64,000 nt of DNA from Streptomyces rimosus. GTDB taxonomy: Bacteria > Actinomycetota > Actinomycetes > Streptomycetales > Streptomycetaceae. Shown in pieces: positions 16,162 to 54,814 of the stretch (within the stretch, counting starts at the first letter, position 1; each line of letters begins with the position of its first letter). The DNA is taken from NCBI RefSeq assembly GCF_008704655.1, contig NZ_CP023688.1, positions 4,774,001 to 4,838,000 of the forward strand. Reading direction: 5' to 3'. A program made the translations under genes and the position numbers. The notes under the pieces are model-generated. The model worked only from the letters and a program-made list of their open reading frames with translations, had not been told where the DNA came from and searched no databases.

Positions 16162-16333
16162 ACGTGCGGCCTCCGGTCGGTGCAAGTGGGTGCCCCTTGA
16201 ACGCTTTTGGCGGCGTGGGCATTCCAACGCGTCCCGTAAAGGCGGTACTCGGGTCTGCCGGGGAGCACGGGCCGTCCCCGCGTACGGTGGCCGGGGCGCG
16301 CCGTCAGCCGGGCGCCGTCGCCGAACCACCGTC

Positions 16334-20443: not shown

Positions 20444-21379
20444 ATGACATCATTCGCCGCCGTTTCAACGTACCTCCCCCCGAGCGTGCCGATTTCCGAA
20501 CTCCGGGAGGAATCCCCGCTCGACGCGGGGATGGCCCGCCGTTTCCAGCGCTTTTACGGGCTGGCGTCGGTGTGCCGGGACCCGGAGCGCACCGAGGCGG
20601 AGCTGTTGCTCGCCGCGGCGGCCAAACTCGACGGGCTCAGGGGGCAGGAGGAGCGGGTCCGCTACCTCGTGCAGGCCCGCACCTTCGTCAGCAGCAGGCC
20701 GGATCCTACCAGCGCACTGCGGTACATCGGCAGGGAATTGGGACTGTCGAACGCCACCGCGTTCTCGGTGGCGGGCCAGGCGTGCGCGAGCGGTCTGCAG
20801 GCGGTCGACATCTGCGGCCGGCTGCTGGCGGCGGACGCCGACCCGGACGCGCTGGCGCTGGTGCTGACCGGTGAGAAGACCTTCACGCCCGTCGCCCGGT
20901 GCGTCCCGCGCAGCAATGTCGGCGGCGAGGCCGCGGCGGCCGTGCTGGTACGCCGGGGCGGCGCGGCGGACGGGGACCGGGTGCTCGGCCGGGCCGTGCG
21001 CACCCATGGGGAGTTCCACGCCGAGGCGATTACCGGAGCGGCCTCGTCCGCGGAGTTCAACAAGCTCTACCCGGAAGCGCTGGAGGACGTGATGCTGGCC
21101 GCCTGCGCGGATTCCGGGGTCACGCTCGACGACATCGACCTGATCATTCCGCACAGCGTCAACACCATTTCCTGGAAAGCGGTCGCGGACCGTTTCGGAT
21201 TTCCTGTGGAACGCATTTTTCTGGACAACATCCCGGTGACCGGCCACTGCTTCGCCGCGGACCCTTTCATCAACTACGGGACGGCCGGACAGCTCGGCCG
21301 GTTGCGCCCCGGCGCGCGGTATCTGCTGACCGCCGTCGGACTGGGCGCGACGTACTCGGCGATGGTCGTCGAGCACTGA
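20444..21379 (+). CDS. KAS III-type ketosynthase/acyltransferase (active-site intact)
   Basis: FabH-like thiolase-fold enzyme of 311 residues. The catalytic triad is complete: C114 in GQACASGLQA, H237 in LIIPHSVN and N277 in FINYGTAG. Such enzymes condense a starter acyl group with malonyl-ACP or, in the CerJ subgroup, transfer acyl groups. ATG 20444 gives the Cys its usual FabH position; a TTG 15 nt upstream also fits. First gene of an operon with an ATP-grasp ligase, PLP decarboxylase, ACP, degenerate KAS III and PPTase. Proposed role: extend or transfer the amino-acyl group built on the ACP. SARP box A lies upstream. Confidence 0.85.
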   Translation: MTSFAAVSTYLPPSVPISELREESPLDAGMARRFQRFYGLASVCRDPERTEAELLLAAAAKLDGLRGQEERVRYLVQARTFVSSRPDPTSALRYIGRELGLSNATAFSVAGQACASGLQAVDICGRLLAADADPDALALVLTGEKTFTPVARCVPRSNVGGEAAAAVLVRRGGAADGDRVLGRAVRTHGEFHAEAITGAASSAEFNKLYPEALEDVMLAACADSGVTLDDIDLIIPHSVNTISWKAVADRFGFPVERIFLDNIPVTGHCFAADPFINYGTAGQLGRLRPGARYLLTAVGLGATYSAMVVEH

Positions 21380-21404
21380 CCGCCACACCGGGCGAGGGGA
21401 CATC

Positions 21405-22799
21405 ATGGAATCGTTGCTGCCGGGCTTCAACGCCCGTCTGAAGGCTGCCGTGGCCGGGAACGAGCAGGTGCCGTTCGTCTTCCTCGGCAATTTCGAGGTC
21501 GAGGAACAGTGGGCGGTCGGCGAACCCGGCCTGCCGCGCATGGGATTCACCGGCGGCGGCGCCGTGGTGAACTCGATGGACGAATTCGCCATGCTGCTGG
21601 CGGGCGAGGGCGACCACGTCGTGCTCAAGGCGCGTCCGGACGCCGGCTACCTGGCGTACCTGCGCGGCCTGGGCCTCGCGCTGCCCACCGTGCACGTCGT
21701 CGCCGAGTCCGACCCGGCGCGCACGGTCTCCCAGGACGCGCTGGCCGACCCGGCGCTCCAGAGCGCGCTGGCGCAGGCCGGTGACGGCCTGATGCTCTAC
21801 GCGCACGGTGTCTCCACCGTCGAGGAGGAGCTGGCCGAGCGGACCGGGCTGCCGCTCGCCCACCCGACGGCCGCGGTGTGCAAGGCCGTGAACAGCAAGA
21901 TCTACAGCCGCCGGGTCGCCGACGAACTGGGCATCGCCCAGGCGCGCGGCTGGGCGTGCGAGACCGTCATGGAGCTGTCGCGGGCCGTCGAAGAGGCCCG
22001 GGAGCTGCTGGCGCAGGGCCGCAAGCTGGTCCTCAAGGACGCCTACGGGGTGTCCGGCAAGGGGATCATGGTCATCGAGAGCGAACGGCGGCTCGACCGG
22101 GTGCACCGGATGGTGCTCGCCCGCGCCGAGGCGGCCGGCAGCGACCGGGCCGGGCTCGTCCTGGAAGAGTGGGTGACCAAGCAGACCGACCTGAACTACC
22201 AGGTCACCGTGGGCCGGGACGGCGCCGTGCGGTTCGACTTCGTCAAGGAAGCGATCACCGAGAACGGCACGCACAAGGGCCACCGGATGCCCGCCCGCCT
22301 CACTCCCGCGCAGCTGGAGCAGGTCACCGACGCCGGTCTGCGGATCGGCGCGCGGCTCGCCGCCGACGGCTACTTCGGCGTCGCGGGCATGGACGCCCTG
22401 CTGCTGCCGGACGGCTCGGTCTTCCCGGTCATCGAGATCAACGCCCGCAACAACATGTCCACGTACCAGGTGCGGCTCCAGGAAGCCTTCGTCGGCGAGG
22501 GCCGCATCGCGCTCGCCCGGCACTACCCGCTGCGGCTCGGCGCGCCGCTGCCCTTCGAGGAGCTGCGCGGCACGCTCGACGGCCTGCTGTTGGAGCGCCC
22601 CGACGGCGCCGGGCTGCTGGTGAACAACTACGCCACCGTCAACGCCGCCGTCAGCACCCTCGCCGAGCCCGGCGCCACCGCCGACGGCCGCCTGTACGGG
22701 CTGGTCGTGGGCGACACCGCGGAGCAGGTCACCGCGATCGACACCGAGATCACCGCCCGGCTGGCCGCGGTGACGGAAGGAGCCGTCCATGTCGGCTGA
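21405..22799 (+). CDS. ATP-grasp ligase, BtrJ-like (amino acid to ACP)
   Basis: 464 residues. The ATP-grasp core runs from about 160 to 380: AVNSKIYSRRVADELGI, the glycine-rich KDAYGVSGKGIMVI nucleotide loop, LVLEEWV, and the Mg2+-binding end VFPVIEINARNNMSTYQ. The order ATP-grasp, PLP decarboxylase, ACP matches BtrJ-BtrK-BtrI of butirosin synthesis, where BtrJ loads L-glutamate onto the ACP. By that analogy this enzyme loads an amino acid on the ACP at 24111; Glu is only a guess. RBS GAGGGGA. The stop overlaps the next gene by 11 nt. Confidence 0.82.
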   Translation: MESLLPGFNARLKAAVAGNEQVPFVFLGNFEVEEQWAVGEPGLPRMGFTGGGAVVNSMDEFAMLLAGEGDHVVLKARPDAGYLAYLRGLGLALPTVHVVAESDPARTVSQDALADPALQSALAQAGDGLMLYAHGVSTVEEELAERTGLPLAHPTAAVCKAVNSKIYSRRVADELGIAQARGWACETVMELSRAVEEARELLAQGRKLVLKDAYGVSGKGIMVIESERRLDRVHRMVLARAEAAGSDRAGLVLEEWVTKQTDLNYQVTVGRDGAVRFDFVKEAITENGTHKGHRMPARLTPAQLEQVTDAGLRIGARLAADGYFGVAGMDALLLPDGSVFPVIEINARNNMSTYQVRLQEAFVGEGRIALARHYPLRLGAPLPFEELRGTLDGLLLERPDGAGLLVNNYATVNAAVSTLAEPGATADGRLYGLVVGDTAEQVTAIDTEITARLAAVTEGAVHVG

Positions 22800-24081
22800 G
22801 TTCGAGATCCAGGGCATCGGCATCACCGAGCTGGCCGAACGCCACGGCACACCGCTGTACGTGTACGACGGCGACGCGCTCGCGGCGAACTTCCGCAGCC
22901 TGCGCGAGCGCCTCCACCCGCGCGCGGAGATCTTCTTCTCCCTCAAGGCGAACCCGAACCTCTCGATCTGCGCGCTGCTCGGCGCGCAGGGCGCCCGCGC
23001 CGAGATCTCCTCGATGACCGAGCTGGTCACCGCCCGCCGGGCGGGCATCGCGCCGCGCGACATCATCTTCCTGGGCCCCGGCAAGAGCCGCGCCGAGCTG
23101 GCCGCCTGCCTGGACGAGGGCATCTACGCGATCGTCTGCGAGTCGCTGGGCGAACTGGAGCTGATCGACGAACTGGCCCGGGAACGCGGCGTCACCGCGC
23201 CCGTCGCGCTGCGCGTCAACCCCAGCTTCTCCGTCAAGGGCTCGGGCCTGACCATGGGCGGCAAGCCGCGCCAGTTCGGCATCGACGAGACCGTCCTGTT
23301 CGACCAGTCCGACCTCGCAGGCCGCCACGCCAACGTCCGCCTGATGGGCGTGCAGGTCTACATGGGCACCCGCATCCTCAGCGAGGAGGTGGTGGCCGAG
23401 AACACCGGCCGGATCTTCGACCTCGCCGAGCGGCTGTCGGAGAAGCTGGGCTTCGACCTCGACCTGGTCGACTTCGGCGGCGGCTTCGGCGTCGCGTACT
23501 TCGACGGGGAGCGCGACCTGGACCAGGAGCGGCTGACCACGCTGCTCAACCCGGTCATCGAGGAGTTCGCCGCGCGGCACCCCGGCACCCGGCTGATCAA
23601 CGAGCTGGGCCGCTACCTGACCGCCCCGTACGGCACCTACGTCTCGCGGGTGCGCTACGTGAAGACCTCGATGGACGAGAACTTCGCGGTGGTCGACGGC
23701 GGCACCAACCACCACATGGCGGCCGTCGGCATCGGCTCCTTCGTCAAGCGCAACTTCCCGATCCGGCTGCTCAACCGCACGGACGCGGGCGAAACCGAGA
23801 GCTGGCACGTCACCGGGCCGCTGTGCACCCCCAACGACACCCTCGGCAAAAAGGTGCAGCTGCCGCCGCTGCGTCCCGGCGACCTGATCGGCGTGGAGCG
23901 CTCCGGCGCGTACGGGCCGACCGCCTCGCCGGTGCACTTCCTCAGCCACGGCTACCCGGCCGAGGTACTGGTGACCGGCGGCCGGGACCACCTGGTCGGC
24001 GCGCCCGAGCAGCCCGAGGACCTGCTGCGCCGCCAGCGCCTGTACACGGACGACGCGCCCGCCGCCGACGCCGCCCACTGA
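22789..24081 (+). CDS. PLP-dependent decarboxylase, BtrK/LysA type
   Basis: Fold-III PLP enzyme of 430 residues. FFSLKANPN holds the Schiff-base Lys (about K46), then EISSMTELVTARRAG, LRVNPSFSVKGSGLTMGGKPRQFGID (core KGSGLTMGGKPRQFGID), LDLVDFGGGFGVAYF (PLP phosphate loop) and NELGRYLTAP. The C-terminal ECD-type Cys segment appears as GPLCTPNDTLG. The MGGKPRQFGID pattern is the BtrK and related subgroup rather than housekeeping LysA. BtrK decarboxylates gamma-glutamyl-ACP to 4-aminobutyryl-ACP; the same kind of carrier-bound decarboxylation is proposed here. Overlaps the ATP-grasp gene by 11 nt. Confidence 0.85.
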   Translation: MSAEFEIQGIGITELAERHGTPLYVYDGDALAANFRSLRERLHPRAEIFFSLKANPNLSICALLGAQGARAEISSMTELVTARRAGIAPRDIIFLGPGKSRAELAACLDEGIYAIVCESLGELELIDELARERGVTAPVALRVNPSFSVKGSGLTMGGKPRQFGIDETVLFDQSDLAGRHANVRLMGVQVYMGTRILSEEVVAENTGRIFDLAERLSEKLGFDLDLVDFGGGFGVAYFDGERDLDQERLTTLLNPVIEEFAARHPGTRLINELGRYLTAPYGTYVSRVRYVKTSMDENFAVVDGGTNHHMAAVGIGSFVKRNFPIRLLNRTDAGETESWHVTGPLCTPNDTLGKKVQLPPLRPGDLIGVERSGAYGPTASPVHFLSHGYPAEVLVTGGRDHLVGAPEQPEDLLRRQRLYTDDAPAADAAH

Positions 24082-24110
24082 CCTGAACCGACACCCCAAG
24101 GAGACCCGAC

Positions 24111-24377
24111 ATGTCGCAGACCGCCGAGAGCACCGCGCAGGACCAGACGATCACCGCCGTCCGCGAGGCGCTCGGTGACGTGCTCCAGCGTGAGCTGCCC
24201 GACCTCGGCCCCGACGCCAAGCTCTTCGACGACTACGGCCTGGACTCCACCGGCGTCCTGGACCTGCTGATGCGTCTGGAGGAGGTCTTCGACGTCGAGT
24301 TCGACACCGAGGAGCTGGAGATGAGCCACTTCGCCACCGTGCGGACGCTGGCCGACTACGTGGCCGCCGCGCGGTGA
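24111..24377 (+). CDS. Acyl carrier protein (BtrI-like)
   Basis: 88 residues with helix I (TITAVREALGDVLQRELPDL), the phosphopantetheine site S46 in DDYGLDSTGVLDLLMRLEE, and the helix III region MSHFATVRTLADYVA. Being free-standing and between the decarboxylase and two KAS III-type genes, it is the likely carrier on which the amino-acyl starter is made. Modified by the Sfp-type transferase of the same operon. AAGGAGA ribosome site. Its stop overlaps the next start (GTGA). Confidence 0.92.
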   Translation: MSQTAESTAQDQTITAVREALGDVLQRELPDLGPDAKLFDDYGLDSTGVLDLLMRLEEVFDVEFDTEELEMSHFATVRTLADYVAAAR

Positions 24378-25219
24378 CGCTCCGCCTCACGGGGGCGGCG
24401 CACCGCGCCTTCACCGGCCGGCCGCCCGCCCCCGCCGACCCGTTCCTGGCGAAGATCTACTCCGATATGGCGGAGCTGTACGGCACCGCCTTCGACCAGG
24501 AGCGCTTCGAGCACGCCAACCGGAACACGTTCACCGACATGGCGCGGGGGCTGCTCGACGCGCTGCCGCCCGTGACGGACCCGGTCGGCCTGATCGTGGT
24601 CGCGTCGGCGGTGCCGGACTTCGAGCCCCGGGTGTCGGCGGTCTCATACCTGACCGACGCGCTGCCCGGCACACCGCAGTCCTTCGCGCTCAGCGACCAG
24701 GGTGACGCGGCCCCGTACACGGCCCTGCGGCTCGCCGGGCAGTACGCGGCCGAGGGGCAGGCCGACCGCGTCCTGGTCACGGTATTCGACCAGACGACGG
24801 TGCCCGCCAACCCCGGCCCGCCCCGGCAGGGCACGGACGCCCGGGACGGCGCGGCGGCGCTGCTGCTGTCCGCGGAGGGCCCCGGGGCGCCGACGGGCGT
24901 CCGGCAGTACGGCGGGCTGACGCCCGAGGACGCCCACGTCCTGTTGCGCGAGGCGCTGCCCGGCGGGGCGGCGACGCTCCTCCTGGGCGGCGGCCTCGAT
25001 CCGGAGCGGGTCGCGGTGCCGGCCGGTGTGACGGTGGAGCGCGCGTCCGCCGAGTTCCCGTGCAGCGGCGTGTGGGGTCTGCTGGCCGACCGGCTCGCGG
25101 ACTTCGCGGAGCAGCGGCTCCCGGTGTTCCTCGCCGACTACGTACCGCAGGGCACGGGTGAGGAGAAGGCCGGGGAACTGTCCTTCTGCGTGGTCGACTT
25201 CAGCGCCGCGACGGCGTGA
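24374..25219 (+). CDS. KAS III-like protein lacking the catalytic cysteine
   Basis: 281 residues with the overall thiolase-like layout: PVGLIVVASAVPDFEPRVSAVSYL early, FALSDQGDAAPYTALRLAGQYAAEGQADRVLVTVFDQT where FabH has its ACSG nucleophile and following helix (shown here as FALSDQGDAAPYTALRLA), and DGAAALLLS. The position of the Cys is occupied by SDQGD, and no PHxxN motif is visible, so ketosynthase chemistry is not expected. It could form a heterodimer with the active KAS III at 20444, in the way KS-beta supports KS-alpha. GTG start overlaps the ACP stop. Confidence 0.7.
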   Translation: MTLRLTGAAHRAFTGRPPAPADPFLAKIYSDMAELYGTAFDQERFEHANRNTFTDMARGLLDALPPVTDPVGLIVVASAVPDFEPRVSAVSYLTDALPGTPQSFALSDQGDAAPYTALRLAGQYAAEGQADRVLVTVFDQTTVPANPGPPRQGTDARDGAAALLLSAEGPGAPTGVRQYGGLTPEDAHVLLREALPGGAATLLLGGGLDPERVAVPAGVTVERASAEFPCSGVWGLLADRLADFAEQRLPVFLADYVPQGTGEEKAGELSFCVVDFSAATA

Positions 25220-25941
25220 CCGGTGCGGGGTGTCCGCCGGACGGCACGGTGCACGTCTGGCGGATACCGCTGTCCGCGCCGCCTCACGTCGTCAGCGAGC
25301 TGACCGCCGTGCTCGATCCCGGGGAGCGGGAGCGCGGCGAACGGGCCCTGCCCGAGGACCGCGCGCGCTCCCGCATCGCCCACGGCGCGGCCCGGCTGAT
25401 CCTGGGCGCGTACTTGGCCGAGCCGCCAGAGCACCTGCGCTACACCTACGGCCGCTGGGGCAAGCCCGCACTGCACGGCCACCCCGAACTGCGCTTCAAC
25501 CTCTCCCACTCCGGCGGCCTGGCACTGCTGGCGGTCGCGTCGCAGCGCGCGCTCGGGATCGATGTGGAGCGGCTGCCGCATCCGGCCGACCGGGCCGTCC
25601 GTAAGGCCGAGCGCTGGTTTCCGGCTGAGGAGGCGGCGTACGTGCGCGCGGGGCGTGATTCCGATGACGCCGCAGCGCGCTTCACAGCGCTGTGGACCCG
25701 TAAGGAAGCGTGGGTCAAGGCTGCGGGTGGGCGCATGGTGCAGGGGTTACGGCTGCCGGTGGGGCCGGGGATGCGGGACGGCGACGTCGTACGGGACCCG
25801 GAAGGGCGGGTCCCCGGGCGGTGGTCGCTGACCGGTGTGCCGGTAGGGGACGGCTACGTGGCGGCGCTGGCCGTGGCGGCGGAGCCGGGGGAGCGGCCCG
25901 TACGCCTGGAGGTCAGGCGGTGGCGACGTTCAGGTACGTGA
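25216..25941 (+). CDS. Sfp-type 4'-phosphopantetheinyl transferase
   Basis: Transfers phosphopantetheine from CoA to carrier-protein Ser, activating the ACP and the NRPS T domains of this cluster. 241 residues with the three family motifs: GRWGKPAL...RFNLSHSGGLALLAV (P1/P2 region), GIDVERL (Mg2+ site), and FTALWTRKEAWVKAAG (W/F-xx-KEA). GTG start overlaps the previous stop (GTGA). The 3' end overlaps the 3' end of the convergent response regulator gene by 29 bp. Confidence 0.92.
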   Translation: MTGAGCPPDGTVHVWRIPLSAPPHVVSELTAVLDPGERERGERALPEDRARSRIAHGAARLILGAYLAEPPEHLRYTYGRWGKPALHGHPELRFNLSHSGGLALLAVASQRALGIDVERLPHPADRAVRKAERWFPAEEAAYVRAGRDSDDAAARFTALWTRKEAWVKAAGGRMVQGLRLPVGPGMRDGDVVRDPEGRVPGRWSLTGVPVGDGYVAALAVAAEPGERPVRLEVRRWRRSGT

Positions 25942-26566
25942 GCACGGCCTGCACGCGCCGGTTGTCGTCCCGGGACGGCAGCAGCTGGAGCTTGCTGAAG
26001 ATGTTGTTGATGTGCTTGCCGATGGCCTTGTCGGTGACGAACAGCGACTCGGCGATGCCGGCGTTCGACTTGCCCTCCGCCATCAGCCCCAGCACCTCCA
26101 GCTCGCGCTGGGTCAGGCTGTCCAGGGGCTCCTGGCGCGAGCCGTTGTGCAGCAGCTTCTCTATGACCTTGGGGTCCATGGCCGTGCCGCCGTCCGCGAC
26201 GCGGCGCACCGCCTCGATGAACTGGCCGCTGTTGAGCACCCGGTCCTTGAGCAGATAGCCGACCGATCCGGTGCCGTCGGCGAGCAGTTCGCGGGCGTAG
26301 AGCTGTTCCACGTACTGGGAGAGGACGAGGACGGGCAGGCCCGGGACCTGGCGGCGCGCCTCCAGCGCGACCTGGATGCCCTCGTCGGTGAAGGTGGGCG
26401 GCAACCGTACGTCCACGATGGCCACGTCGGGGCGTTCGTCGATGAGCGCGCGCAGCAGTTCCGGCGCGTTGTCCACGGACGCCACGATGGTGCAGCCGTG
26501 GGCCTCCAGAAGGCGTTCCATGCCTTCCCTCAGGAGGAAGAGGTCTTCTCCGAGGACGACACGCAT
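25913..26566 (-). CDS. NarL/LuxR-family response regulator
   Basis: 217 residues: receiver domain MRVVLGEDLFLLREGMERLL with the phospho-acceptor Asp in VAIVDVRLPP and the switch Lys in GYLLKDRV, and a LuxR-type helix-turn-helix LTQRELEVLGLMAEGKSNAGIAESLFVTDKAIGKHI (core ESLFVTDKAIGKHINNIFSK). ATG 26566 is chosen for GGAGG 5 nt upstream; a second ATG sits directly before it. No kinase adjoins it; the orphan kinase at 17256-18560 is the natural candidate partner. It sits between the two SARP-box operons, on the opposite strand. Confidence 0.9.
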   Translation of the reverse strand: MRVVLGEDLFLLREGMERLLEAHGCTIVASVDNAPELLRALIDERPDVAIVDVRLPPTFTDEGIQVALEARRQVPGLPVLVLSQYVEQLYARELLADGTGSVGYLLKDRVLNSGQFIEAVRRVADGGTAMDPKVIEKLLHNGSRQEPLDSLTQRELEVLGLMAEGKSNAGIAESLFVTDKAIGKHINNIFSKLQLLPSRDDNRRVQAVLTYLNVATA

Positions 26567-26706
26567 CATGGCCTCCCCGCGGCAGTCGGTCGGTGACGCC
26601 GGCCCACCGCACACAGCGCCTCTACGCACCGGACTGTACCTCTCACCCCTGACAGGCCGGTGACGGATGAATGACGGATTCGGCCACTCGGCGGCCGGCC
26701 GGAGCG

Positions 26707-26746
26707 GTAATCAACTGGTCATCGAAACGTCAGTGGCGTCGGCAAG
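26707..26746 (+). promoter_or_regulatory. SARP box B: four heptamers at 11-bp spacing
   Basis: GTAATCA (26707), GTCATCG (26718), GTCAGTG (26729) and CGGCAAG (26740), each 11 bp apart. The block aligns unit by unit with box A (GTCATCA, GTCACTG, GTCAGCA, TGGCCAG) and ends 83 bp before the sbnB ATG, close to the 77 bp of box A. Confidence 0.75.
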
Positions 26747-26829
26747 TGTGGTTTCCCGGCACCGATGCCCCCTGACGCGCCCGCGCACCGCGGTGCGGAC
26801 GTCAGTCCCGGATCACTGGTGGAGTTTCC

Positions 26830-27873
26830 ATGCCCCCCTCTGGCACTGAGGTACCGTCCTTCTCCGTCATCTCGGGCGAGCAGGTCTCCCGAGTTCTGCA
26901 CGGGCAGGAAAAGCAGATCGTCGAGCTGGTCGACTACGCCTACCGCGTGCACGGTGTCGGTGACACCGTCAATCCGCCGTCGTACTTCCTGAAGTTCGAG
27001 GACCGGCCGTCGGCGCGCATCATCGCGCTGCCCGCCTCCGTGGGCGGCGAGGTCGGTGTCGACGGCATCAAGTGGATTTCCAGTTTTCCCGAGAACATCG
27101 AGTCCGGCCTGCCGCGTGCCTCGGCCGTGCTCATCCTCAACGACCGGGACACCGGTTATCCGTTCGCCTGCATGGAGAGCTCCATCATCAGCGCGGTGCG
27201 CACGGCGGCCTCCGCGGCGCTGGCCGCCGACTGGCTGACCCGCGAGCGGGGCCGCCCGAAGCGCGTCGGATTCATCGGCACCGGCCTGATCGCCCGCTAT
27301 ATCCACACCTATCTCGCGGGCACCGGCTGGGAATTCGACGAGATCGGCATCCACGACCTCAGCAATGAATACGCCGCGGGCTTCGAGAACCACCTGAAGG
27401 ACGCCGGCGGCACCGGGCGCACCGTCCTCCACGACTCGGCGGAGAGCCTGATCCGCAACAGCGACCTGGTCGTCTTCGCCACCGTCGCGGGCACTCCGCA
27501 CGTCACCAGCCCGGCGTGGTTCGCGCACAACCCGGTGGTGCTCCACGTGTCGCTGCGCGACCTGGGCCCGGAGGTCATCAAGGCGTCGTCCAACTTCGTG
27601 GACGACGTCGAGCACGTACTGAAGGCCAACACCTCCGTGCACCTCGTCGAGCAGGAGGTCGGCAACCGCTATTTCATCAACGGAACCCTGCACAACGTGA
27701 TGACGGGCATGGTGAAGATTCCGCGGGACCGCCCCGTCGTCTTCTCGCCCTTCGGCCTCGGCGTCCTGGACCTGACCGTCGCCAAGCACGTCTACGACGA
27801 ACTCGCCGCGAGCGACGGGCTACACACGGTCGACGGGTTCTTCCACGAACTGTCCCGGCACGGGAAGAAATAG
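26830..27873 (+). CDS. sbnB: SbnB-like 2,3-diaminopropionate biosynthesis dehydrogenase
   Basis: Ornithine cyclodeaminase-fold enzyme of 347 residues. In the known route SbnB oxidatively cleaves N-(1-amino-1-carboxy-2-ethyl)-glutamate with NAD+ to L-2,3-diaminopropionate and 2-oxoglutarate. The sequence shows VNPPSYFLKFEDRPSARIIALPA, the substrate-binding KWISSFPENI, LILNDRDTGYP, and the Rossmann loop RVGFIGTGLIARYI. Followed after 48 nt by the SbnA-like gene, its regular partner. GGTGGAG ribosome site. First gene of the NRPS operon, behind SARP box B. Confidence 0.9.
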   Translation: MPPSGTEVPSFSVISGEQVSRVLHGQEKQIVELVDYAYRVHGVGDTVNPPSYFLKFEDRPSARIIALPASVGGEVGVDGIKWISSFPENIESGLPRASAVLILNDRDTGYPFACMESSIISAVRTAASAALAADWLTRERGRPKRVGFIGTGLIARYIHTYLAGTGWEFDEIGIHDLSNEYAAGFENHLKDAGGTGRTVLHDSAESLIRNSDLVVFATVAGTPHVTSPAWFAHNPVVLHVSLRDLGPEVIKASSNFVDDVEHVLKANTSVHLVEQEVGNRYFINGTLHNVMTGMVKIPRDRPVVFSPFGLGVLDLTVAKHVYDELAASDGLHTVDGFFHELSRHGKK

Positions 27874-27921
27874 CCGCGGCCCCGCCACCGGACCACACGC
27901 CCGCGGTTGGGAGGACCTGAC

Positions 27922-28905
27922 GTGCCCGTGATATCCGCCCCGCACGAATTCAACGTGCCGGATCTCTTCGTCGACCTGAACAACGTCCTCGGAGAGAACC
28001 TCTATCTCAAGTGCGAAGGATTCAACTTCGCCGGATCCATCAAACTCAAGGCCGCCGTGGAAATGATCGACCGCGGTGAGCGGGACGGCACCCTGCGGCC
28101 CGGCATGACCCTGGTCGAATCGTCCTCGGGAAATCTCGGTGTGGCGCTGAGCCTGGTGGCCCGCAGCAAGGGCTACGGCTTCGTGTGCGTCACCGACAGC
28201 CGGTGCACCCTCGCCAACCGGCAGCGCATGGAGAACCTCGGCGCCCAGGTACGCATCATCACCGAGCCCGACCCGGAGAGCGGCCTGCTCGGCGCCCGTA
28301 TCCGCCTCGTACAGGAACTGTGCGCGAGCGACGCCGGCTACGCATGGCTGAATCAGTACGCCAACCTCGGCAACTGGATGAGCCACTACCGCACGACCGG
28401 GCCCGAGATCGCCGCCCAGTTCCCCGATCTGGACGTGCTGTTCATCGGTGCCGGCACCACCGGCACTCTGATGGGCTGCGCCCGCTACTTCCGCGAGAAC
28501 CAGCCCTCGGTCACCGTCGTCGCCGTCGACAGCGTCGGCTCGGTCACCTTCGGCACCCCGGCGGCACCGCGCATGATCCCCGGCCTGGGGGCCGGCGTCC
28601 GGCCGCAGATGCTCGACGAGTCGTACGTGGACGCCGTGGTGCACGTCCCCGAGACCGACACGGTCCGGATGTGCCACCACCTGGTCCGGCACGGCTATGT
28701 CCTCGGCGGCTCCACCGGCACCGTGCTCAGCGGCGCCCGGCAGTGGATCGCGGAGAACCGGCCGGAGCGGGACATCGTCGGCGTGGCCGTCTCGCCCGAC
28801 CTGGGCGATCACTACCTGGACACCGTCTACCAGGAGAAGTGGCTCCAGGACATCTACGGCCTGAGCCCGGACGAGCTGTCCGGGGCGTCCCGGGCCACCG
28901 CGTAA
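27922..28905 (+). CDS. sbnA: SbnA-like N-(2-amino-2-carboxyethyl)-L-glutamate synthase
   Basis: Fold-II PLP enzyme of the cysteine synthase family, 327 residues. SbnA joins O-phospho-L-serine and L-glutamate, making the substrate of SbnB. K41 in NFAGSIKLKAA is the PLP Lys; ESSSGNLGVALS and GAGTTGTLMG bind substrate and PLP phosphate; GGSTGTVLSGA closes the site. The GTG at 27922 is chosen because GGGAGGACC lies 7 nt upstream; an ATG 15 nt earlier is within that ribosome site. Together with SbnB it commits the cluster to 2,3-diaminopropionate as a building block. Confidence 0.9.
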   Translation: MPVISAPHEFNVPDLFVDLNNVLGENLYLKCEGFNFAGSIKLKAAVEMIDRGERDGTLRPGMTLVESSSGNLGVALSLVARSKGYGFVCVTDSRCTLANRQRMENLGAQVRIITEPDPESGLLGARIRLVQELCASDAGYAWLNQYANLGNWMSHYRTTGPEIAAQFPDLDVLFIGAGTTGTLMGCARYFRENQPSVTVVAVDSVGSVTFGTPAAPRMIPGLGAGVRPQMLDESYVDAVVHVPETDTVRMCHHLVRHGYVLGGSTGTVLSGARQWIAENRPERDIVGVAVSPDLGDHYLDTVYQEKWLQDIYGLSPDELSGASRATA

Positions 28906-29003
28906 CGCCCCGGGCGGAACGGCCCGCCCACCCGCGCGCACGGGGCCGCCGGACCGCCGCACCGAACCCTTCCCACCCGCAGGTCCTCCAGGAGGTTGCT
29001 GTC

Positions 29004-32000
29004 ATGACCGCACGTATCGAGCCGGGTCTGCCGCTCACCGCGGCCCAGACCGAGATCTGGTTCGACGAGCAGTTCGCCGACGGCGACCTGGCCTACAACA
29101 TGGCCGATCACTTCGACCTCCGCGGCCCGCTCGACCCCGCCCGCCTGGAGGAGGCGCTGCGCCTGGCCCTCGACGAGGCCGAGTGCTTCCGCGTCCGCCT
29201 CACCGAGGCGGACGGCGAGCCCCGCCAGACCGTCGAACCCCTGGAGAACCTGCCGTACACCACGGTCGACCTGAGCGGCGCCGACGACCCGCAGGAAGCG
29301 GCGCGCGCCTGGATGGCCCGCGACCTGGACCGCCCGATCGACGTCATGTCCTTCCCGCTGATGCGGGCGGCGCTGCTCACCCTCGGCCCGGACCACGCGT
29401 ACCTCTACCTGTGCGCGCACCACATCGTCAGCGACAGCTTCGTCCGCCCGCTGTTCTACCGGCGGCTGGCCGACCTCTACACCGCCCTGCACGAGGGCCG
29501 CCCCACCGGCGAGGGGCAGCTGCCGCCGCTGAAGACGCTGGTGGACGACGAGATCGCGTACGCGTCGTCGCGGCGCGCCGAGCGGGACCGCGCCTACTGG
29601 GCCCGTACCTACGCCGACGCGCCCGACCCGGTCAGCTTCGCCGGCCGCGAGCCGGTGCACGCGCGCGGCTTCCTGCGCCGCAGCACGACCCTGCCGCGCC
29701 CGGTGGTGCAGCGGCTGCGCGCCCTCGCCGGCCGGGCCGAGGTCACCTGGCCGACGCTGGTCATCGCCGCCGCTGCCGCCTACACCCAGCGGCTGACCGG
29801 CGCCGACGAGATCCTGCTGACCCTCCCGGTCAACGCGCGCACCAGCGCCGCCGGACGCTCCGTACCCGGCATGGTCGCCAACTACCTGCCGCTCCGCGTG
29901 GCCGTCGCCCCCGGCACCACGCCCGAGAACCTGCTGCGCACGGTCGCCGACGCGCTGCTGCGTACGCTGCGCCACCAGCGCTACCGGGGCGACCGGGTGC
30001 GCCGCGACATGGGACTGCGGGCCGACGACCGGCGCCCGTTCGGCCCGTTCGTCAACGTCCTGCCGCCCGAGCCGGAACTCGCCTTCGGCCCCTGCCCGGC
30101 GACCCTCACCAACCTGTCCACCGGCATCGTCAACGACTTCATGTTCTCGGTCTCCGACTCCTCGGGCGACGACGTCGAGATCCACCTCAACGCCAACCCC
30201 GAGCTGTACTCCGCCGCCGACCTCGACGCCCACCGCGACCGCTTCACCGCCTTCCTGACCGCCCTGTCCGAGGCGGCGCCCGACCGCCCGCTGGCGGGCG
30301 TCGGCGTGCTCACGGAGGCGGAGTCGCGGCGGCTGCTGGTGGAGTGGAACGCGACGGAGCGGGGTGGCGGCTTCGCCGGTGTGGTGGAGCGGGTGCGGCA
30401 GCACGCTTCGGTACGGCCGGACGCGATCGCGGTGGCCGATGGCGAGGTGCGCGTTTCGTATGGCGCGCTGGCCGTCTGGGCCGATGGCGTTGCCGCGCGG
30501 CTGACGGAGGCCGGGGCCGGTCTCGGCTCGCTGGTGGCTGTGCTCGGTGAGCCCGGGGCCCGCTATGTCGGCGGTGTATTGGGCGTGTTGGGGGCGGGGG
30601 CCGCCTGGCTGCCGCTCGATGTGGATGCGCCGATCGCCCGGCAGACGGGGCTGCTCGCGGATAGCGGCGCCCGCTTCCTGCTGGCCGGGCCCGGGCAGGT
30701 GGCTCGGGCCGAGGAGATCGTGGCGGCGGACGGTTCCGGCGTACGGGTGCTGGTGCTCGACGATCCGTTCCCGGGCGCGGGGGCGCGGGCGGAGGGCCTG
30801 CGGCCGCTCGCCGGCGGTGAGGACGATCTCGCGTACGTGATCTATACGTCGGGATCGACCGGCCGCCCGAAGGGCGCGATGGTGCACCGGCGCGGCATGG
30901 TCAATCACCTGCTGGCCAAGGTTGAGGACCTGGCGATGACCGAGGGCGATGTGCTGGTGCACAACGCGCCGGTGACCTTCGACATCTCCGTATGGCAGAT
31001 GCTCGCCGCGCTCGTGTCCGGCGGTACGACGCGGGTCGTGGACCGGGTGACCGCCGCCGACCCGGACGCCCTCTTCGGCGTGACGGTCTCCGAGGGCGTT
31101 TCCGTCCTGGAAGTGGTCCCGTCGCTGCTGCGGGCCGCGCTGGATGCCTGGGAGACGGCGGGTGGCTTCCCGTCGCTGCCGAAGCTGCGCTACCTCGTGG
31201 TCACCGGTGAGGCCCTGCCGGTCGACGTGTGCCGCCGCTGGTTCGCCCGTTACCCGGGGATTCCGCTGGTCAACGCGTACGGCCCGACCGAGTGCTCCGA
31301 CGACGTGACACACGCGGTGCTCGACGCGTCGAGCGAGCTGGGCGCGCGGACGCCGATCGGCCGGGTCGTGCGCAACACCCGGCTGTATGTGCTGGACGAC
31401 GCGCTGCGGCCGGTGCCGGTCGGTGTCGCGGGTGAGCTGTACGTGGCGGGTACGGGCGTTGGGCGTGGCTATCTCGCCGACCCGGCGCGTACGGCTTCGA
31501 CGTTCATGGCCGATCCGTTCGGCCCGCCCGGTGAGCGGATGTACCGGACCGGTGACCGCGTGGTCTACCGTCCCGACGGTCAGCTGGAGTTCCTGGAGCG
31601 CCGCGATCACCAGGTCAAGATCCGGGGCCGCCGGATCGAGCTGGGCGAGATCGAGGCGGCGCTGCGGGCCGTCGAGGGCGTTACCGACGCTGCGGCCCAG
31701 GTTCACACCGACGCCGCCACCGGCCGAAAGCGCCTGGTCGGCTACCTCGTCGGACCTGCCGGTGCCGATCAGGTACGCGCCGATCTGGCGAAGGTGCTGC
31801 CCGAGTACATGATCCCCGGCGAGTTCGCCGCTCTCGACGCCCTGCCGCTCACCCCGAACGGCAAGGTCGACCGCAAGGCCCTCACCGCCCCCGAGACGAC
31901 CGCCTCGACGAGCGCCGGCCGCGCCCCGCGCACCCCGCAGGAGGAGATTCTCTGCGCCGCCTTCGCCGAGGTGCTGAACCTGCCGTCGGTCGCCGCCGAC

Positions 32001-35000: not shown

Positions 35001-36922
35001 CGGCTGCTGGTGGAGTGGAACGCGACGGAGCGGGGTGGCGGCTTCGCCGGTGTGGTGGAGCGGGTGCGGCAGCACGCGTCCGCCCGTCCGGACGCGGTGG
35101 CCGTGGCCGACGGTGAGGTGCAGGTTTCGTACGGCGCGCTGGCGGTCTGGGCCGATGGCGTTGCCGGGCGCCTGGCGGAGGCCGGGGCGGGCGTTGGCTC
35201 GCTGGTGGCCGTACTTGGCGAGCCCGGGGCCCGCTATGTCGGCGGCGTACTGGGCGTGTTGGGGGCGGGGGCCGCCTGGCTTCCCCTCGACGTGGACGCG
35301 CCGATCGCCCGGCAGACGGGGCTGCTCGCGGACAGTGGGGCCCGCTTCCTGCTGACCGGACCGGGCGAGCTGGCCCGCGCGCGGGAGATCGCCGAGGCGT
35401 ACGACGGTGAGCTGAGCGTGCTGTGCCTGGACGATCCGTTCCCGGCCGTCGGGGCACGGGCGGAGGGCCTGCGGCCGCTCGCCGGCGGCGAGGACGATCT
35501 CGCGTACGTGATCTACACGTCGGGATCGACCGGGCGCCCGAAGGGCGCCATGGTGCACCGGCGCGGCATGGTCAACCACCTACTGGCCAAGGTCGAGGAC
35601 CTGGCCATGACCGAGGGCGATGTGCTGGTGCACAACGCGCCGGTGACGTTCGACATCTCGGTGTGGCAGATGCTCGCCGCGCTCGTGTCCGGCGGTACGA
35701 CGCGGGTCGTGGACCGGGTGACCGCAGCCGACCCGGACGCCCTCTTCGGCGTGACGGTCTCCGAGGGCGTCTCCGTCCTCGAAGTCGTGCCGTCGCTGTT
35801 GCGGGCCGCGTTGGATGCCTGGGAGACGGCCGGCGGTTTCCCGTCGCTGCCGAAGCTGCGCTACCTCGTGGTCACCGGTGAGGCCCTGCCGGCGGACGTG
35901 TGCCGTCGCTGGTTCGCCCGCTACCCGGGGATTCCGCTGGTCAACGCGTACGGTCCGACCGAGTGCTCGGACGACGTGACGCACGCCGTCCTGACCGTGG
36001 ACACCGACCTGGCGGGCTCGCGCGTGCCGATCGGCCGCGTGGTGCGCAACACCCGCCTGTACGTGCTGGACGACGCCCTGCGCCCCGTACCCGTCGGCGT
36101 GCCCGGCGAACTGTATGTGGCGGGCACCGGAGTTGGGCGCGGCTACCTTGCCGACCCGGCGCGTACGGCATCGACGTTCATGGCCGATCCGTTCGGCCCG
36201 CCCGGTGAGCGGATGTACCGGACCGGTGACCGCGTGGTCTACCGTCCCGACGGTCAGCTGGAGTTCCTGGAGCGCCGCGATCACCAGGTCAAGATCCGGG
36301 GGCGCCGGATCGAGCTGGGCGAGATCGAGGCGGCGCTGCGGGCCGTCGAGGGCGTCACGGACGCGGCGGCTCAGGTCCACACCGACGCCGCCACCGGCCG
36401 AAAGCGCCTGGTCGGCTACCTCGTCGGACCGGCCGACCCCGCCCGCGTACGGGCCGATCTGCTGCTCGTGCTGCCGGAGTACATGGTGCCAGGCGAGTAC
36501 GTGAGGCTGGACGCCCTGCCGCTGACTCCGAACGGCAAGGTCGACCGGAAGGCCCTCACCGCCCCCGAAGCCACCGCGCTGACGGGCGAGGGGCGTGCCC
36601 CGCGCACTCCGCAGGAGGAGACCTTCTGCGCCGCCTTCGCCGACGTACTGGACCTGCCGTCGGTCGCCGCCGACGCCGACTTCTTCGCGCTCGGCGGGGA
36701 CAGCATCAGCTCCATCCAGCTGGTCGGCCGGGCCCGCAAGGCCGGGCTGGTGATCACGCCGCGGGACGTGTTCCTGCACAAGACGCCTGCCGCGCTCGCC
36801 ACCGCCGCCCAGGCGGCGGGGGAGGCGCCGGCCGTGTACGAGCCGGTGGCCGCCGACCGGCCGCTGGTCGCGTTGTCGGACGACGAACTCGACGAGTTCG
36901 ACATGGAATTCGGGGACTTTCA

Positions 36923-36926
<4 letters not shown>
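29004..36926 (+). CDS. NRPS, two modules: C-A-T-E-C-A-T
   Basis: 2640 residues, cytosolic. Domains by residue: C1 10-430 (HHIVSDS near 139), A1 455-960 ([11 protein letters not shown] near 613, NGKVDRK end), T1 985-1050 (LGGDSISS), E 1065-1520 (HHLAVDGVS near 1199, [14 protein letters not shown]), C2 1560-1985 (HHSLVDGWS near 1699), A2 2000-2525, T2 near 2564. My reading of the A-domain pocket (GrsA positions) is D-I-W-E-V-T-A-D-D-K for both A1 and A2; Glu and two Asp suggest a basic amino acid, and neighbouring sbnA/sbnB suggest 2,3-diaminopropionate. C1 at the N terminus means module 1 receives an upstream acyl group, probably from the ACP starter system. Start ATG 29004 follows CAGGAGG. 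The stop overlaps the next NRPS (GTGA). Confidence 0.93.
30315..32115 (+). repeat. Duplicated A-T DNA, copy 1
   Basis: From GAGGCGGAGTCGCGG at 30315 to about the GACGTGTTCCTGC of the T domain near 32100, the DNA is nearly the same as 34986-36789. Several stretches are identical for tens of bases, including wobble positions, e.g. at the start of the block. This points to recent duplication or gene conversion between modules 1 and 2. Confidence 0.85.
34986..36789 (+). repeat. Duplicated A-T DNA, copy 2
   Basis: Second copy of the block at 30315-32115, offset by 4671-4674 bp. The middle (about 35360-35450 and 35990-36060) differs more than the rest, so conversion tracts appear patchy. Confidence 0.85.
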
Positions 36927-44125
<7,199 letters not shown>

Positions 44126-44167
44126 TCCGCCCCCACGTACCACTCACGATTGCGAGGAGAGATCCCC

Positions 44168-44380
44168 ATGGCGAACCCCTTCGACAACGAAGACGGCACC
44201 TTCCACGTCCTGGTCAACGGCGAGGGCCAGCACAGCATCTGGCCCGTCTTCGCCGACGTCCCGGCAGGCTGGACGATCACCCTCGAAGCGCGGCCCCGCG
44301 CCGAGGCCCTGGCCGCCGTCGAGCGCGACTGGACCGACATGCGGCCCAAGAGCCTCGTCACCGCCCACGCCGGCAGCTGA
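44168..44380 (+). CDS. mbtH: MbtH-like protein
   Basis: 70-residue partner that binds and activates NRPS adenylation domains. It has the family pattern NPFDNEDGTFHVLVNGEGQHSIWP (core NGEGQHSIWP) followed by VPAGWTI and the Trp/Pro-rich DWTDMRPKSL. The ATG at 44168 follows GAGGAGAG; an upstream ATG in frame would overlap that site. Lies 42 nt after NRPS2 and 5 nt before the exporter ATPase. Confidence 0.96.
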   Translation: MANPFDNEDGTFHVLVNGEGQHSIWPVFADVPAGWTITLEARPRAEALAAVERDWTDMRPKSLVTAHAGS

Positions 44381-44385
44381 CCGCG

Positions 44386-45351
44386 ATGGGGGCGGACACC
44401 GCGGTCTACGCGGAAGGGCTGCAGAAGCGCTACAAGAGCCACCACGCGCTGCGCGGCGTCGACCTGTCGGTGGCCGCCGGCTCCGTGCTCGGCGTGCTCG
44501 GCCCCAACGGGGCGGGCAAGACGACGACCGTGCGGGTGCTGTCCACGCTGCTGACGCCGGACGCCGGGCACGCGACCGTCGCCGGGTACGACGTGGTGCG
44601 CCAGAGCAAGGAGGTGCGCCGCCGGATCGGCCTGGCCGGGCAGTACGCGGCCGTGGACGAACTGCTCACCGGCCGCGAGAACCTGGTCCTGCTCGGCCGG
44701 CTGCTGCGGCAGGGCCGGCGCGGCGCCCGGCAGCGGGCCGCCGAACTGCTGGCCCGGTTCGAGCTGGAGGACGCCGCCGACCGCCCGGTGGGCACGTACT
44801 CCGGCGGTATGCGGCGCCGGCTCGACCTGGCCACCTGCATCATCGCCCGGCCGCCGGTGCTGTTCCTGGACGAGCCGACCACCGGCCTGGACCCGACCAG
44901 CCGCACCGTGCTGTGGAAGGTGGTGCGCGAACTCGTCGACGAGGGCATCACCGTCCTGCTCACCACGCAGTACCTGGAGGAGGCCGACCAGCTGGCCGAC
45001 CAGATCGTGGTGATCGACACCGGCAAGGTGATCGCCGCCGGCACCCCGGCCGAACTCAAGCGCGCCGTCGGCACCGACCACCTCCAGGTCGCGGTCGCCC
45101 GGCCCGGCCAGCTGGCCACCGCGCTGTCCGCCGTCACCCCGCTGACCGGCGCCGAGCCGGTGGTGGACACCGCGGCCCAGCGGCTGACCGTACAGCTCGA
45201 CGCCGGGCTGGAGAGCGTGGCCGCCCTCGCGGACGCGCTGCGCGCCGCGGGCGTCGAGGTCACCGACTTCGAGGTGCGGCGCCCCACCCTCGACGACGTG
45301 TTCTTCCAACTGACCGAGCGCAACGAGCCGGAGACGAGCCTTCATGAGTGA
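44386..45351 (+). CDS. ABC exporter ATPase, DrrA-like
   Basis: 321 residues: Walker A GPNGAGKTTT, Q loop GLAGQYAAVD, signature YSGGMRRRLDLA, Walker B PPVLFLDEPTTGLDP, H loop TTQY, and the C-terminal DrrA-type extension ending VRRPTLDDVFFQLTER. Energises efflux of the peptide made by the cluster, giving self-resistance. Starts 5 nt after mbtH and overlaps the permease gene by 8 nt. Confidence 0.93.
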   Translation: MGADTAVYAEGLQKRYKSHHALRGVDLSVAAGSVLGVLGPNGAGKTTTVRVLSTLLTPDAGHATVAGYDVVRQSKEVRRRIGLAGQYAAVDELLTGRENLVLLGRLLRQGRRGARQRAAELLARFELEDAADRPVGTYSGGMRRRLDLATCIIARPPVLFLDEPTTGLDPTSRTVLWKVVRELVDEGITVLLTTQYLEEADQLADQIVVIDTGKVIAAGTPAELKRAVGTDHLQVAVARPGQLATALSAVTPLTGAEPVVDTAAQRLTVQLDAGLESVAALADALRAAGVEVTDFEVRRPTLDDVFFQLTERNEPETSLHE

Positions 45352-46162
45352 ACTCCGCGTCGCGACGGTGCCGCCGGGCGGCCCGTTCGCGGGCCTGGCC
45401 GACACCGCCGCCCTGGCCGGGCGGCACCTGCTGCATCTGCGGCGGGCACCGGGGAAGTTCCTCGGCATCGTGATGAACCCGCTGATCCTGCTGATCGCGG
45501 TGGGCTATCTCTTCCGCAACTCCATCTCGGTGCCCGGCAGCGGCAATTACCAGGAGTACCTGATGGCCGGCGTGGCCGTGCAGGTCGGGCTGGCGAGCAT
45601 CGGGCCGACCGCCATCGGCGTGGCGATGGACATGCGCGGCGGCCTGGTGGACCGCTTCCGGTCGCTGCCGGTCTCCCGTACGGCCGTCCTCATCGGCCAG
45701 ACGCTCTCCGACCTGATCGTCTCGGCGCTCGGCCTGGCGATCGTGATGCTGGTGGGCCTGGCCGTCGGCTGGCGCCCGCACACGGGGCCGCTGTCGGTGC
45801 TGGGCGGCTTCGCGGTGATCCTCGCGTTCGTCTACGCCATGCTCTGGGTGGGCGTCCTGATCGGGCTGCTGCTGCGGTCGCCGGAGACCATCGACTCGGT
45901 GGGCGCGATCGTGCTGGTGGCGTTCTCGTTCCTGTCGAACGCCTTCTTCTCCGTACAGGGGCTGCCCTCGTGGATCCGGCCGCTCGCCGAGTGGAACCCG
46001 GTCAGCGCGGTGGTCACGTCCTGCCGCACCCTGTGGGGCAACCCGGTGGTGACCGGTACGGGCTTCCCGGCCGACCACCCGGTACTGGTGACGGCGGGCA
46101 CGCTCGCCGTGCTGCTGGCCGTGTGCGTACCGCTGAGCCTGCGCGCGTACCGGAGGGCGTGA
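45344..46162 (+). CDS. ABC-2 exporter permease, DrrB-like
   Basis: 272 residues with six membrane helices (first about 42-60 NPLILLIAVGYLF; last at the C terminus, VLVTAGTLAVLLAVCVPLSL). MDMRGGLVDRFRSLPVSRTAVLIG is the ABC-2/DrrB coupling region (core GLVDRFRSLPVSR). Forms the membrane half of the exporter with the preceding ATPase, overlapping it by 8 nt. Last gene of the NRPS operon. Confidence 0.93.
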   Translation: MSELRVATVPPGGPFAGLADTAALAGRHLLHLRRAPGKFLGIVMNPLILLIAVGYLFRNSISVPGSGNYQEYLMAGVAVQVGLASIGPTAIGVAMDMRGGLVDRFRSLPVSRTAVLIGQTLSDLIVSALGLAIVMLVGLAVGWRPHTGPLSVLGGFAVILAFVYAMLWVGVLIGLLLRSPETIDSVGAIVLVAFSFLSNAFFSVQGLPSWIRPLAEWNPVSAVVTSCRTLWGNPVVTGTGFPADHPVLVTAGTLAVLLAVCVPLSLRAYRRA

Positions 46163-54806: not shown

Positions 54807-54814
54807 GACCTGTG

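Follow-up and report, generated by a model that had tools for sequence, protein, structure and literature searches.

PqsB and PqsC divide their labor between a Cys-bearing subunit and a Cys-less partner. SbnA and SbnB are known for supplying 2,3-diaminopropionate (Dap) for a siderophore. In the formation of the butirosin side chain, BtrK decarboxylates glutamyl-S-BtrI to GABA-S-BtrI (GABA, 4-aminobutyrate), as stated in a passage of PMC7857480. Genes resembling parts of these systems stand next to a nonribosomal peptide synthetase (NRPS) in a 64,000 nt stretch of the Streptomyces rimosus genome, which is a single contig of 9.36 Mb. This whole stretch is referred to as the window; the cluster piece studied covers its positions 20444–46162, and all coordinates are window positions. 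The genes reported in the initial annotation were all recovered at or very near the places given there by Pfam and NCBIfam scans and fold models.

We propose that the product of the cluster is a small nonribosomal peptide rich in Dap, capped at its N terminus by an amine-bearing acyl group that a priming pathway builds on a stand-alone carrier protein, and put the probability of this reading at about 0.5. The sequences themselves show which parts are present and to what families these belong, that the first condensation (C) domain is of the starter type and that the cassette is conserved; every reaction is proposed from them.

Organization and distribution of the cassette

The cassette forms a tight run of genes on the + strand starting at 20444. 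The first gene encodes a KASIII protein (20444–21379; PF08541; Cys114-His237-His268), which is predicted to be a priming ketosynthase or an acyltransferase. It is followed by the genes for a preATP-grasp/ATP-grasp ligase (21405–22799; PF18604 PreAtp-grasp, PF02222), the proposed loader of the acyl carrier protein (ACP) with an aminoacyl group, and for a BtrK-like pyridoxal phosphate (PLP) decarboxylase (22789–24081), proposed to act on the ACP-bound amino acid. The stand-alone ACP (24111–24377; PF00550) contains the phosphopantetheine site GLDST. The next gene encodes KASx (24374–25219), a Cys-less protein of KASIII fold according to its fold model and a proposed partner subunit. The run ends with a 4′-phosphopantetheinyl transferase (PPTase) gene (25216–25941; PF01648). 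The ATP-grasp and decarboxylase genes, the ACP and KASx genes, and the KASx and PPTase genes overlap by a few bases.

The scan of the GTDB genomes with the KASIII alignment yielded 138 confirmed relatives, of which the best 80, representing 79 loci, were kept. A gene was regarded as absent from a locus when it was not found within about 10 kb on either side, or less at contig ends, and the score thresholds for the gene calls were chosen by eye. KASIII and KASx occur together in 77 of the 79 loci; the contigs of the remaining two end at or within the decarboxylase gene. All five genes, encoding KASIII, the ATP-grasp ligase, the decarboxylase, the ACP and KASx, are present in 48 loci, and in 46 of the 79 they lie in unchanged order on a single strand and span no more than 6.5 kb, which indicates a grouping beyond chance. 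Neither the ligase nor the decarboxylase gene was found near the pair in 18 of the 79 loci, the Actinokineospora loci among them. KASIII, KASx and usually the ACP therefore look like the core of the cassette, to which the ligase and the decarboxylase would contribute one of several acyl supplies.

The initial annotation had treated this combination of genes as a candidate new assembly line. No described cluster with this gene set was found in the open-licence literature, where absence is weak evidence. The view of a single novel cluster was nevertheless too narrow, as the locus is one member of a module that recurs in actinobacteria. It is better seen as one case of a recurrent amino-starter module, here serving an NRPS that initiates with D-Dap.

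Close relatives are found within the species, where KASx homologs share 88–96% identity with the window protein and KASIII of strain NRRL WC-3904 shares 96%. KASx matches were detected in 38 of the 392 sampled genomes of the genus; two of them, including that of the window, score above 500 bits, and the next one scores 196. The search of plasmids with tblastn revealed one actinobacterial cassette (L103, KASIII 48% identity) and distant proteobacterial relatives. The latter, on plasmids of Rahnella aceris (L102) and Agrobacterium vitis (L104), share about 30% identity in KASIII; on these megaplasmids the KASIII relatives are accompanied by a PLP decarboxylase-type enzyme, carrier proteins, AMP ligases, acyl-CoA dehydrogenases and a P450.

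The surroundings of the cassette vary. A fatty acyl-AMP ligase (FAAL) and acyl-CoA dehydrogenases are encoded in 25 of the 79 loci (L025 to L032, L034, L035, L039 and others). The five-gene cassette is present in 24 of these 25, often with a MATE exporter and a stand-alone C-like protein; we know of no product of such clusters. Eight Actinokineospora loci (L055, L057, L058, L064, L065, L068, L077 and L079) contain KASIII, ACP and KASx genes, with no ligase or decarboxylase gene in reach. Genes for E1 dehydrogenase subunits are annotated at L055, together with one for a glyoxalase/HPPD-like protein, and the same E1 dehydrogenase gene families occur in other Actinokineospora loci. A nitrosuccinate-lyase-like protein (543 bits, cut-off 650) is encoded at L055 next to an FAD/NAD(P)-binding protein, and these neighbors suggest nitrous-acid chemistry.

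KASIII and KASx

The catalytic residues Cys, His and His of KASIII are invariant in all 86 aligned rows (E ≤ 1e-30, weaker or partial paralogs having been dropped). The peptide patterns used in the scan include the PH of His237, so that the constancy of this residue is partly built in; Cys114 and His268 lie outside these patterns. The triad differs from the Cys-His-Asn of FabH, since His replaces Asn in the alignment of KASIII with FabH, and the protein scores 38 bits against the curated FabH model TIGR00747, which has a cut-off of 292. The Cys-His-His triad is used by the KAS I/II condensing enzymes. At the sequence level KASIII scores 79 bits against FabH and 28 bits against PqsC, and in the structure comparison its model matches DpsC, FabH, NatS, ChlB3, PqsC and CerJ about equally.

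No match to KASx was found in Pfam or NCBIfam. Its model adopts the thiolase/KASIII fold, with Asp at the position of the catalytic Cys. The catalytic Cys is missing from all 98 readable rows of the 104-row KASx alignment, in which six rows are gapped at this site and some proteins are represented by two fragments; 11 rows carry a Cys one position further on. KASx is proposed on the basis of its modeled fold to be a partner subunit of KASIII. The pairing of an active-type, Cys-bearing KASIII (Cys114, His237, His268) with a Cys-less KASIII-like protein, as annotated initially, agrees with these residues and with the fold.

Supply of the amino-acyl starter

The best solved relatives of the decarboxylase are the BtrK structures 7ru7 and 2j66 with 325 bits each, followed by diaminopimelate decarboxylase with 178 bits. 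Its motif GPLCTPND matches GPLCTPED of BtrK, and CTP is present in all 59 aligned cassette rows. The enzyme is thus BtrK-like in sequence, as the initial annotation had stated, and it is proposed to act on an ACP-bound amino acid. Another decarboxylase of the window genome (L002) also contains CTP, and the motif is therefore supportive and not exclusive. One LysA-like protein of the same genome (L106) has CES; the stretches L105, L107 and L108 gave no motif match. A housekeeping LysA was considered and set aside in view of the scores (325 versus 178 bits) and of CTP in place of CES.

The closest solved chain to the ATP-grasp ligase is PGM1, with only 38 bits. Its homologs number 671; none of the 120 listed is named BtrJ, one (P0210) is named ‘peptide ligase PGM1-related’, and the best 60 of the 120 share 102 invariant columns. 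We infer from the gene neighborhood that the ligase loads the ACP. The ACP itself weakly matches AmcB (42 bits, cut-off 80). The cispentacin-type chemistry to which this match might point was set aside, as no stand-alone AMP ligase is present among the scanned cluster proteins.

Dap supply and the NRPS

The genes sbnB (26830–27873, + strand) and sbnA (27922–28905, + strand) are located downstream of the cassette. The start of sbnA at 27922 was picked by eye, while the scanned reading frame started at 27907. Their products exceed the curated NCBIfam equivalog cut-offs, SbnB with 411 bits against 327 (TIGR03944) and SbnA with 381 bits against 350 (TIGR03945), which bears out their earlier assignment to Dap biosynthesis.

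The association of Dap genes with the cassette recurs. SbnA adjoins it in 11 of the 79 loci, all of which contain the five genes, and SbnB accompanies SbnA in 10. A C domain nearest to the first one of the window was found in 10 of these 11 loci; the eleventh, L056, ends just past sbnA. In the KASIII tree (80 rows, a quick method with SH-aLRT supports), all 12 Dap (SbnA-type) rows, the window included, fall within one clade of 27 rows with a support of 97, in which the S. rimosus/WM6378 lineage branches first. The other 15 rows of the clade belong to eight five-gene loci without SbnA in reach and to seven Amycolatopsis loci, which contain KASIII, the decarboxylase and KASx and have no ATP-grasp gene in reach.

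The NRPS genes follow on the same strand. NRPS1 (29004–36926) has the organization Cs-A-T-E-C-A-T, where Cs, A, T and E are starter condensation, adenylation, thiolation and epimerization domains, and both of its A domains are predicted to select Dap. NRPS2 (36923–44125) has the organization C-A-T-C-A-T-TE, ending in a thioesterase (TE) domain. The Pfam scan detected three condensation-type, two A and two T stretches in NRPS1, and two C, two A and two T domains and the TE in NRPS2. The Cs domain lies at about 29028–30323 and the E domain, distinguished by its motif from a C domain, at about 32199–33503.

The first C domain of NRPS1 (C1) scores 236 bits against 7c1h, which we take to be the rhizomide starter C domain, and 225 against C1 of the CDA synthetase. 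It scores 201 against ObiF1, 148 against EntF, 135 against VibH (presumably entry 1l5a, listed as an amide synthase), 116 against Txo1 and 75 against TycC. The later domain C4 of NRPS2, used as a control, scores 476 bits against 5u89, 295 against Txo1, 51 against the CDA C1 and 34 against 7c1h. With the reference chains divided into starter and peptidyl C domains as we assume them to be, C1 resembles the starter type and the control domain does not. An acyl-carrier donor is to be expected from this, as the initial annotation had argued from the position of the domain, and an ACP-borne acyl donor for NRPS1 is well supported by the comparison. The cassette ACP is the probable donor, because it is the sole stand-alone carrier among the scanned cluster proteins.

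The pockets of A1 and A2 are identical (DIWEVTADD), and their acidic residues would suit a diamino acid, putatively Dap. These pockets and the E-type domain after module 1 are consistent with the order D-Dap, Dap that had been predicted. Of 13 A domains taken from relatives, six yielded a readable pocket, the A1 pocket motifs of L062 being added separately. A1 of L023 and L053 has the same code, A1 of L038 differs from it by one change and A1 of L062 has matching pocket motifs. The remaining SbnA loci gave no complete pocket for A1, in most cases because the retrieved sequence stops at this point. In L053 and L062 the pocket of the second A domain differs and is not Dap-like, so that only the first Dap appears to be common. 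The pockets of A3 (DITQFGLIW) and A4 (DAAVIACVC) bear some resemblance to Gly-like and aromatic-like codes, respectively, and no residue was assigned from them.

Two further observations concern the NRPS genes. The DNA of A1 and A2 is nearly duplicated, with 77–100% identity in 19 of 21 blocks of 90 bases and 67% and 58% in the other two; this near-identity indicates recent duplication or gene conversion. The C3 domain (36923–38300) has 62% identity with C2, which follows the E domain, and begins with the motif of C2 although module 2 has no E domain; the second Dap could therefore be in either configuration.

Proposed biosynthetic pathway

The pathway is proposed to begin with the arming of the ACP by the PPTase. 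The ATP-grasp ligase would then couple Glu or Asp to the ACP through the side-chain carboxyl group, and the BtrK-like enzyme would strip the α-carboxyl group to give 4-aminobutyryl- or β-alanyl-ACP. KASIII and KASx, most likely as a heterodimer, would take over this acyl group and add one malonyl-derived unit. The product would be a β-keto ω-amino acyl-ACP, which may cyclize. The starter C domain of NRPS1 would pass the acyl unit to Dap made by SbnA and SbnB, and this Dap would be epimerized to the D form. After the addition of a second Dap and two more residues, the TE domain would release the peptide and the ABC pump would export it.

The role of the KASIII pair in this scheme is suggested by its neighbors in other genomes. 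Five of the 11 SbnA loci (L036, L045, L056, L066 and L083) contain genes for a chain length factor (CLF)-like and a FabG-like protein. A separate FabF-like ketosynthase gene is present in four of the five; the stretch of L056 starts inside the CLF gene. L066 also contains a second ACP gene and a FabZ-like gene, the latter recognized by sequence motif alone and without a Pfam match. CLF and FabG genes occur likewise in four of the 13 other five-gene loci (L038, L048, L052 and L074). A heterodimeric priming ketosynthase is favored because the module is paired with such type II polyketide synthase (PKS) genes in five of the 11 SbnA loci, where the KASIII pair is most simply explained as the maker of the first carbon-carbon bond.

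Several observations weigh against this role. No relatives of the FabG, FabZ-like, acyl-CoA dehydrogenase and CLF queries were found in the window at E ≤ 1e-3, so that nothing found there would process a β-keto group, and in six of the 11 SbnA loci the fetched stretch contains neither a CLF nor a FabG gene. DpsC, ChlB3, NatS and CerJ, which are acyltransferases, match the KASIII model in structure as closely as FabH does. The FAAL-type clusters carry the same KASIII/KASx pair without elongation genes, CLF and FabG genes being found in none of the 25. Compared as sequence profiles, KASIII and KASx match weakly (hhalign probability 2%, E 0.024), and their kinship was therefore judged by the fold model. 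The assignment of the ATP-grasp ligase to ACP loading is drawn from its gene neighborhood.

The same observations bear on the possibility that KASIII and KASx act as an acyltransferase, which passes the ACP-bound aminoacyl group on to a different carrier or to a nucleophile and leaves plain GABA or β-alanine as the N-terminal cap. DpsC, ChlB3, NatS and CerJ have acyl-transfer roles, the third active-site residue of KASIII is not the Asn of FabH, the FAAL-type clusters (0 of 25) keep the pair without FabG or CLF, and the window has no FabG-, FabZ-, acyl-CoA dehydrogenase- or CLF-like relatives. However, a starter C domain might accept its acyl unit straight from the ACP, which would make a transfer enzyme redundant, nine five-gene loci (5 of 11 with SbnA, 4 of 13 others) pair the module with CLF and FabG, and Cys-His-His is a triad of condensing enzymes of the KAS I/II type. 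Acyl transfer is considered rather unlikely, and priming is ranked ahead of it, but not by much.

It is improbable that NRPS1 starts from an ordinary fatty acyl-ACP or -CoA to give a lipopeptide, with the amine unit of the cassette attached elsewhere or serving as the release nucleophile. The best relatives of C1, the CDA C1 and 7c1h, do take fatty acyl groups, and a FAAL adjoins the cassette in 25 of the 79 loci. In the window, however, the FAAL query matches the two NRPS frames only, and no stand-alone carrier besides the cassette ACP is seen among the scanned cluster proteins. The least probable of the alternatives is that the ATP-grasp enzyme is a peptide ligase of the PGM1 kind, forming an amide such as a protecting group, while the ACP is loaded otherwise. 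The closest solved relative of the enzyme is indeed PGM1, after which the homolog P0210 is also named. On the other hand, no stand-alone adenylation-type loader is found among the scanned cluster proteins, the ligase, decarboxylase and ACP genes are consecutive in 46 of the 79 loci, and the butirosin ATP-grasp enzyme does both jobs.

A broader form of the priming hypothesis is put forward tentatively, with somewhat less than even chances. The cassette may represent a so far undescribed and widespread family of KASIII heterodimers, each composed of a Cys-His-His subunit and a Cys-less partner. These would be primed by ω-aminoacyl-ACP made through ligase and decarboxylase chemistry of the butirosin type, and would start amine-terminated chains that are used in three ways. 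The chains would be used directly by an NRPS starter domain in S. rimosus, extended by a type II PKS before D-Dap in other actinobacteria, and coupled to fatty acids in the FAAL-type clusters. The S. rimosus starter would then be a β-keto ω-amino acyl unit or a cyclic imine or enamine.

If this is true, one five-gene module explains the amine-started chains of many actinobacterial clusters that look unrelated, and a Cys-His-His KASIII with a Cys-less partner provides a searchable handle for their products. It would also mean that a KASIII pair accepts a protonatable amino-acyl starter, and S. rimosus, a well-used industrial species, would become a test bed.

Cluster borders and neighboring genes

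Prediction of the left border relies on related loci. An MMPL-like transporter gene (18658–20133, − strand; PF03176) and a sensor histidine kinase gene (17256–18560, − strand; PF13796/PF07730/PF02518) precede the cassette. Both families also adjoin the cassette in L023 and L024, and for this reason the cluster probably reaches left to these genes, with the kinase gene as the probable edge. A NarL/LuxR-type response regulator (25913–26629, − strand; PF00072, PF00196) is encoded between the PPTase and sbnB genes. NRPS2 is followed on the + strand by genes for an MbtH-like protein (44168–44380; PF03621), a DrrA-type ABC ATPase (44386–45351; assigned from its translation and TIGR01188, 357 bits, cut-off 312) and a DrrB-like ABC-2 type permease (45344–46162; PF01061; TIGR01247, 67 bits, below the cut-off of 223). 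A SARP-type activator with a PF03704 BTAD domain is encoded at 46270–47040 on the − strand.

Two other genes of the window were noted. The gene at 14296–16329 (− strand) encodes an MFS transporter with a C-terminal carboxypeptidase-regulatory-like domain. The gene at 54776–58288 (+ strand), preceded by one for an epimerase-type protein, encodes a fusion of 1171 amino acids between a ketosynthase and an 8-amino-7-oxononanoate synthase-like PLP domain. This fusion gene probably belongs to a separate small cluster.

Comparison with known systems

The cluster shares with the butirosin side-chain genes (BtrI/BtrJ/BtrK) a ligase, a BtrK-type decarboxylase and a stand-alone ACP as neighbors. It differs in that no oxygenase, acyltransferase or cyclotransferase of the BtrO, BtrH or BtrG kind is found among the scanned cluster proteins by Pfam and NCBIfam, which agrees with the lack of a butirosin-type oxygenase and cyclotransferase noted initially; two KASIII-fold proteins and an NRPS are present in the window instead. 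The Dap branch is similar to SbnA/SbnB, with both proteins above the curated cut-offs, and differs from it in the proposed use of Dap, which would go to two identical A domains and not into a siderophore. The best matches of C1 in NRPS1 are the starter C domains 7c1h and CDA synthetase I C1 (4jn3); these take fatty acyl groups, whereas an amino-acyl donor is proposed here.

In structure, DpsC, CerJ, ChlB3 and NatS rank level with FabH among the best hits for the KASIII model, their sequence identity to it being about 20%. To our knowledge, none of the four is combined with a Cys-less partner and a supply of aminoacyl-ACP. A parallel to the pair itself is PqsBC, in which a Cys-bearing KASIII also has an adjacent Cys-less partner and of which PqsC is among the structural matches of KASIII. 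Such a constant Cys-less partner of KASIII fold is found here as well, in 77 of the 79 loci and with the Cys in none of the 98 readable rows. The pair differs from PqsBC in the Cys-His-His triad and in the sequence of KASIII, which is nearer to that of FabH than to that of PqsC (79 versus 28 bits), and its association into a heterodimer is predicted.

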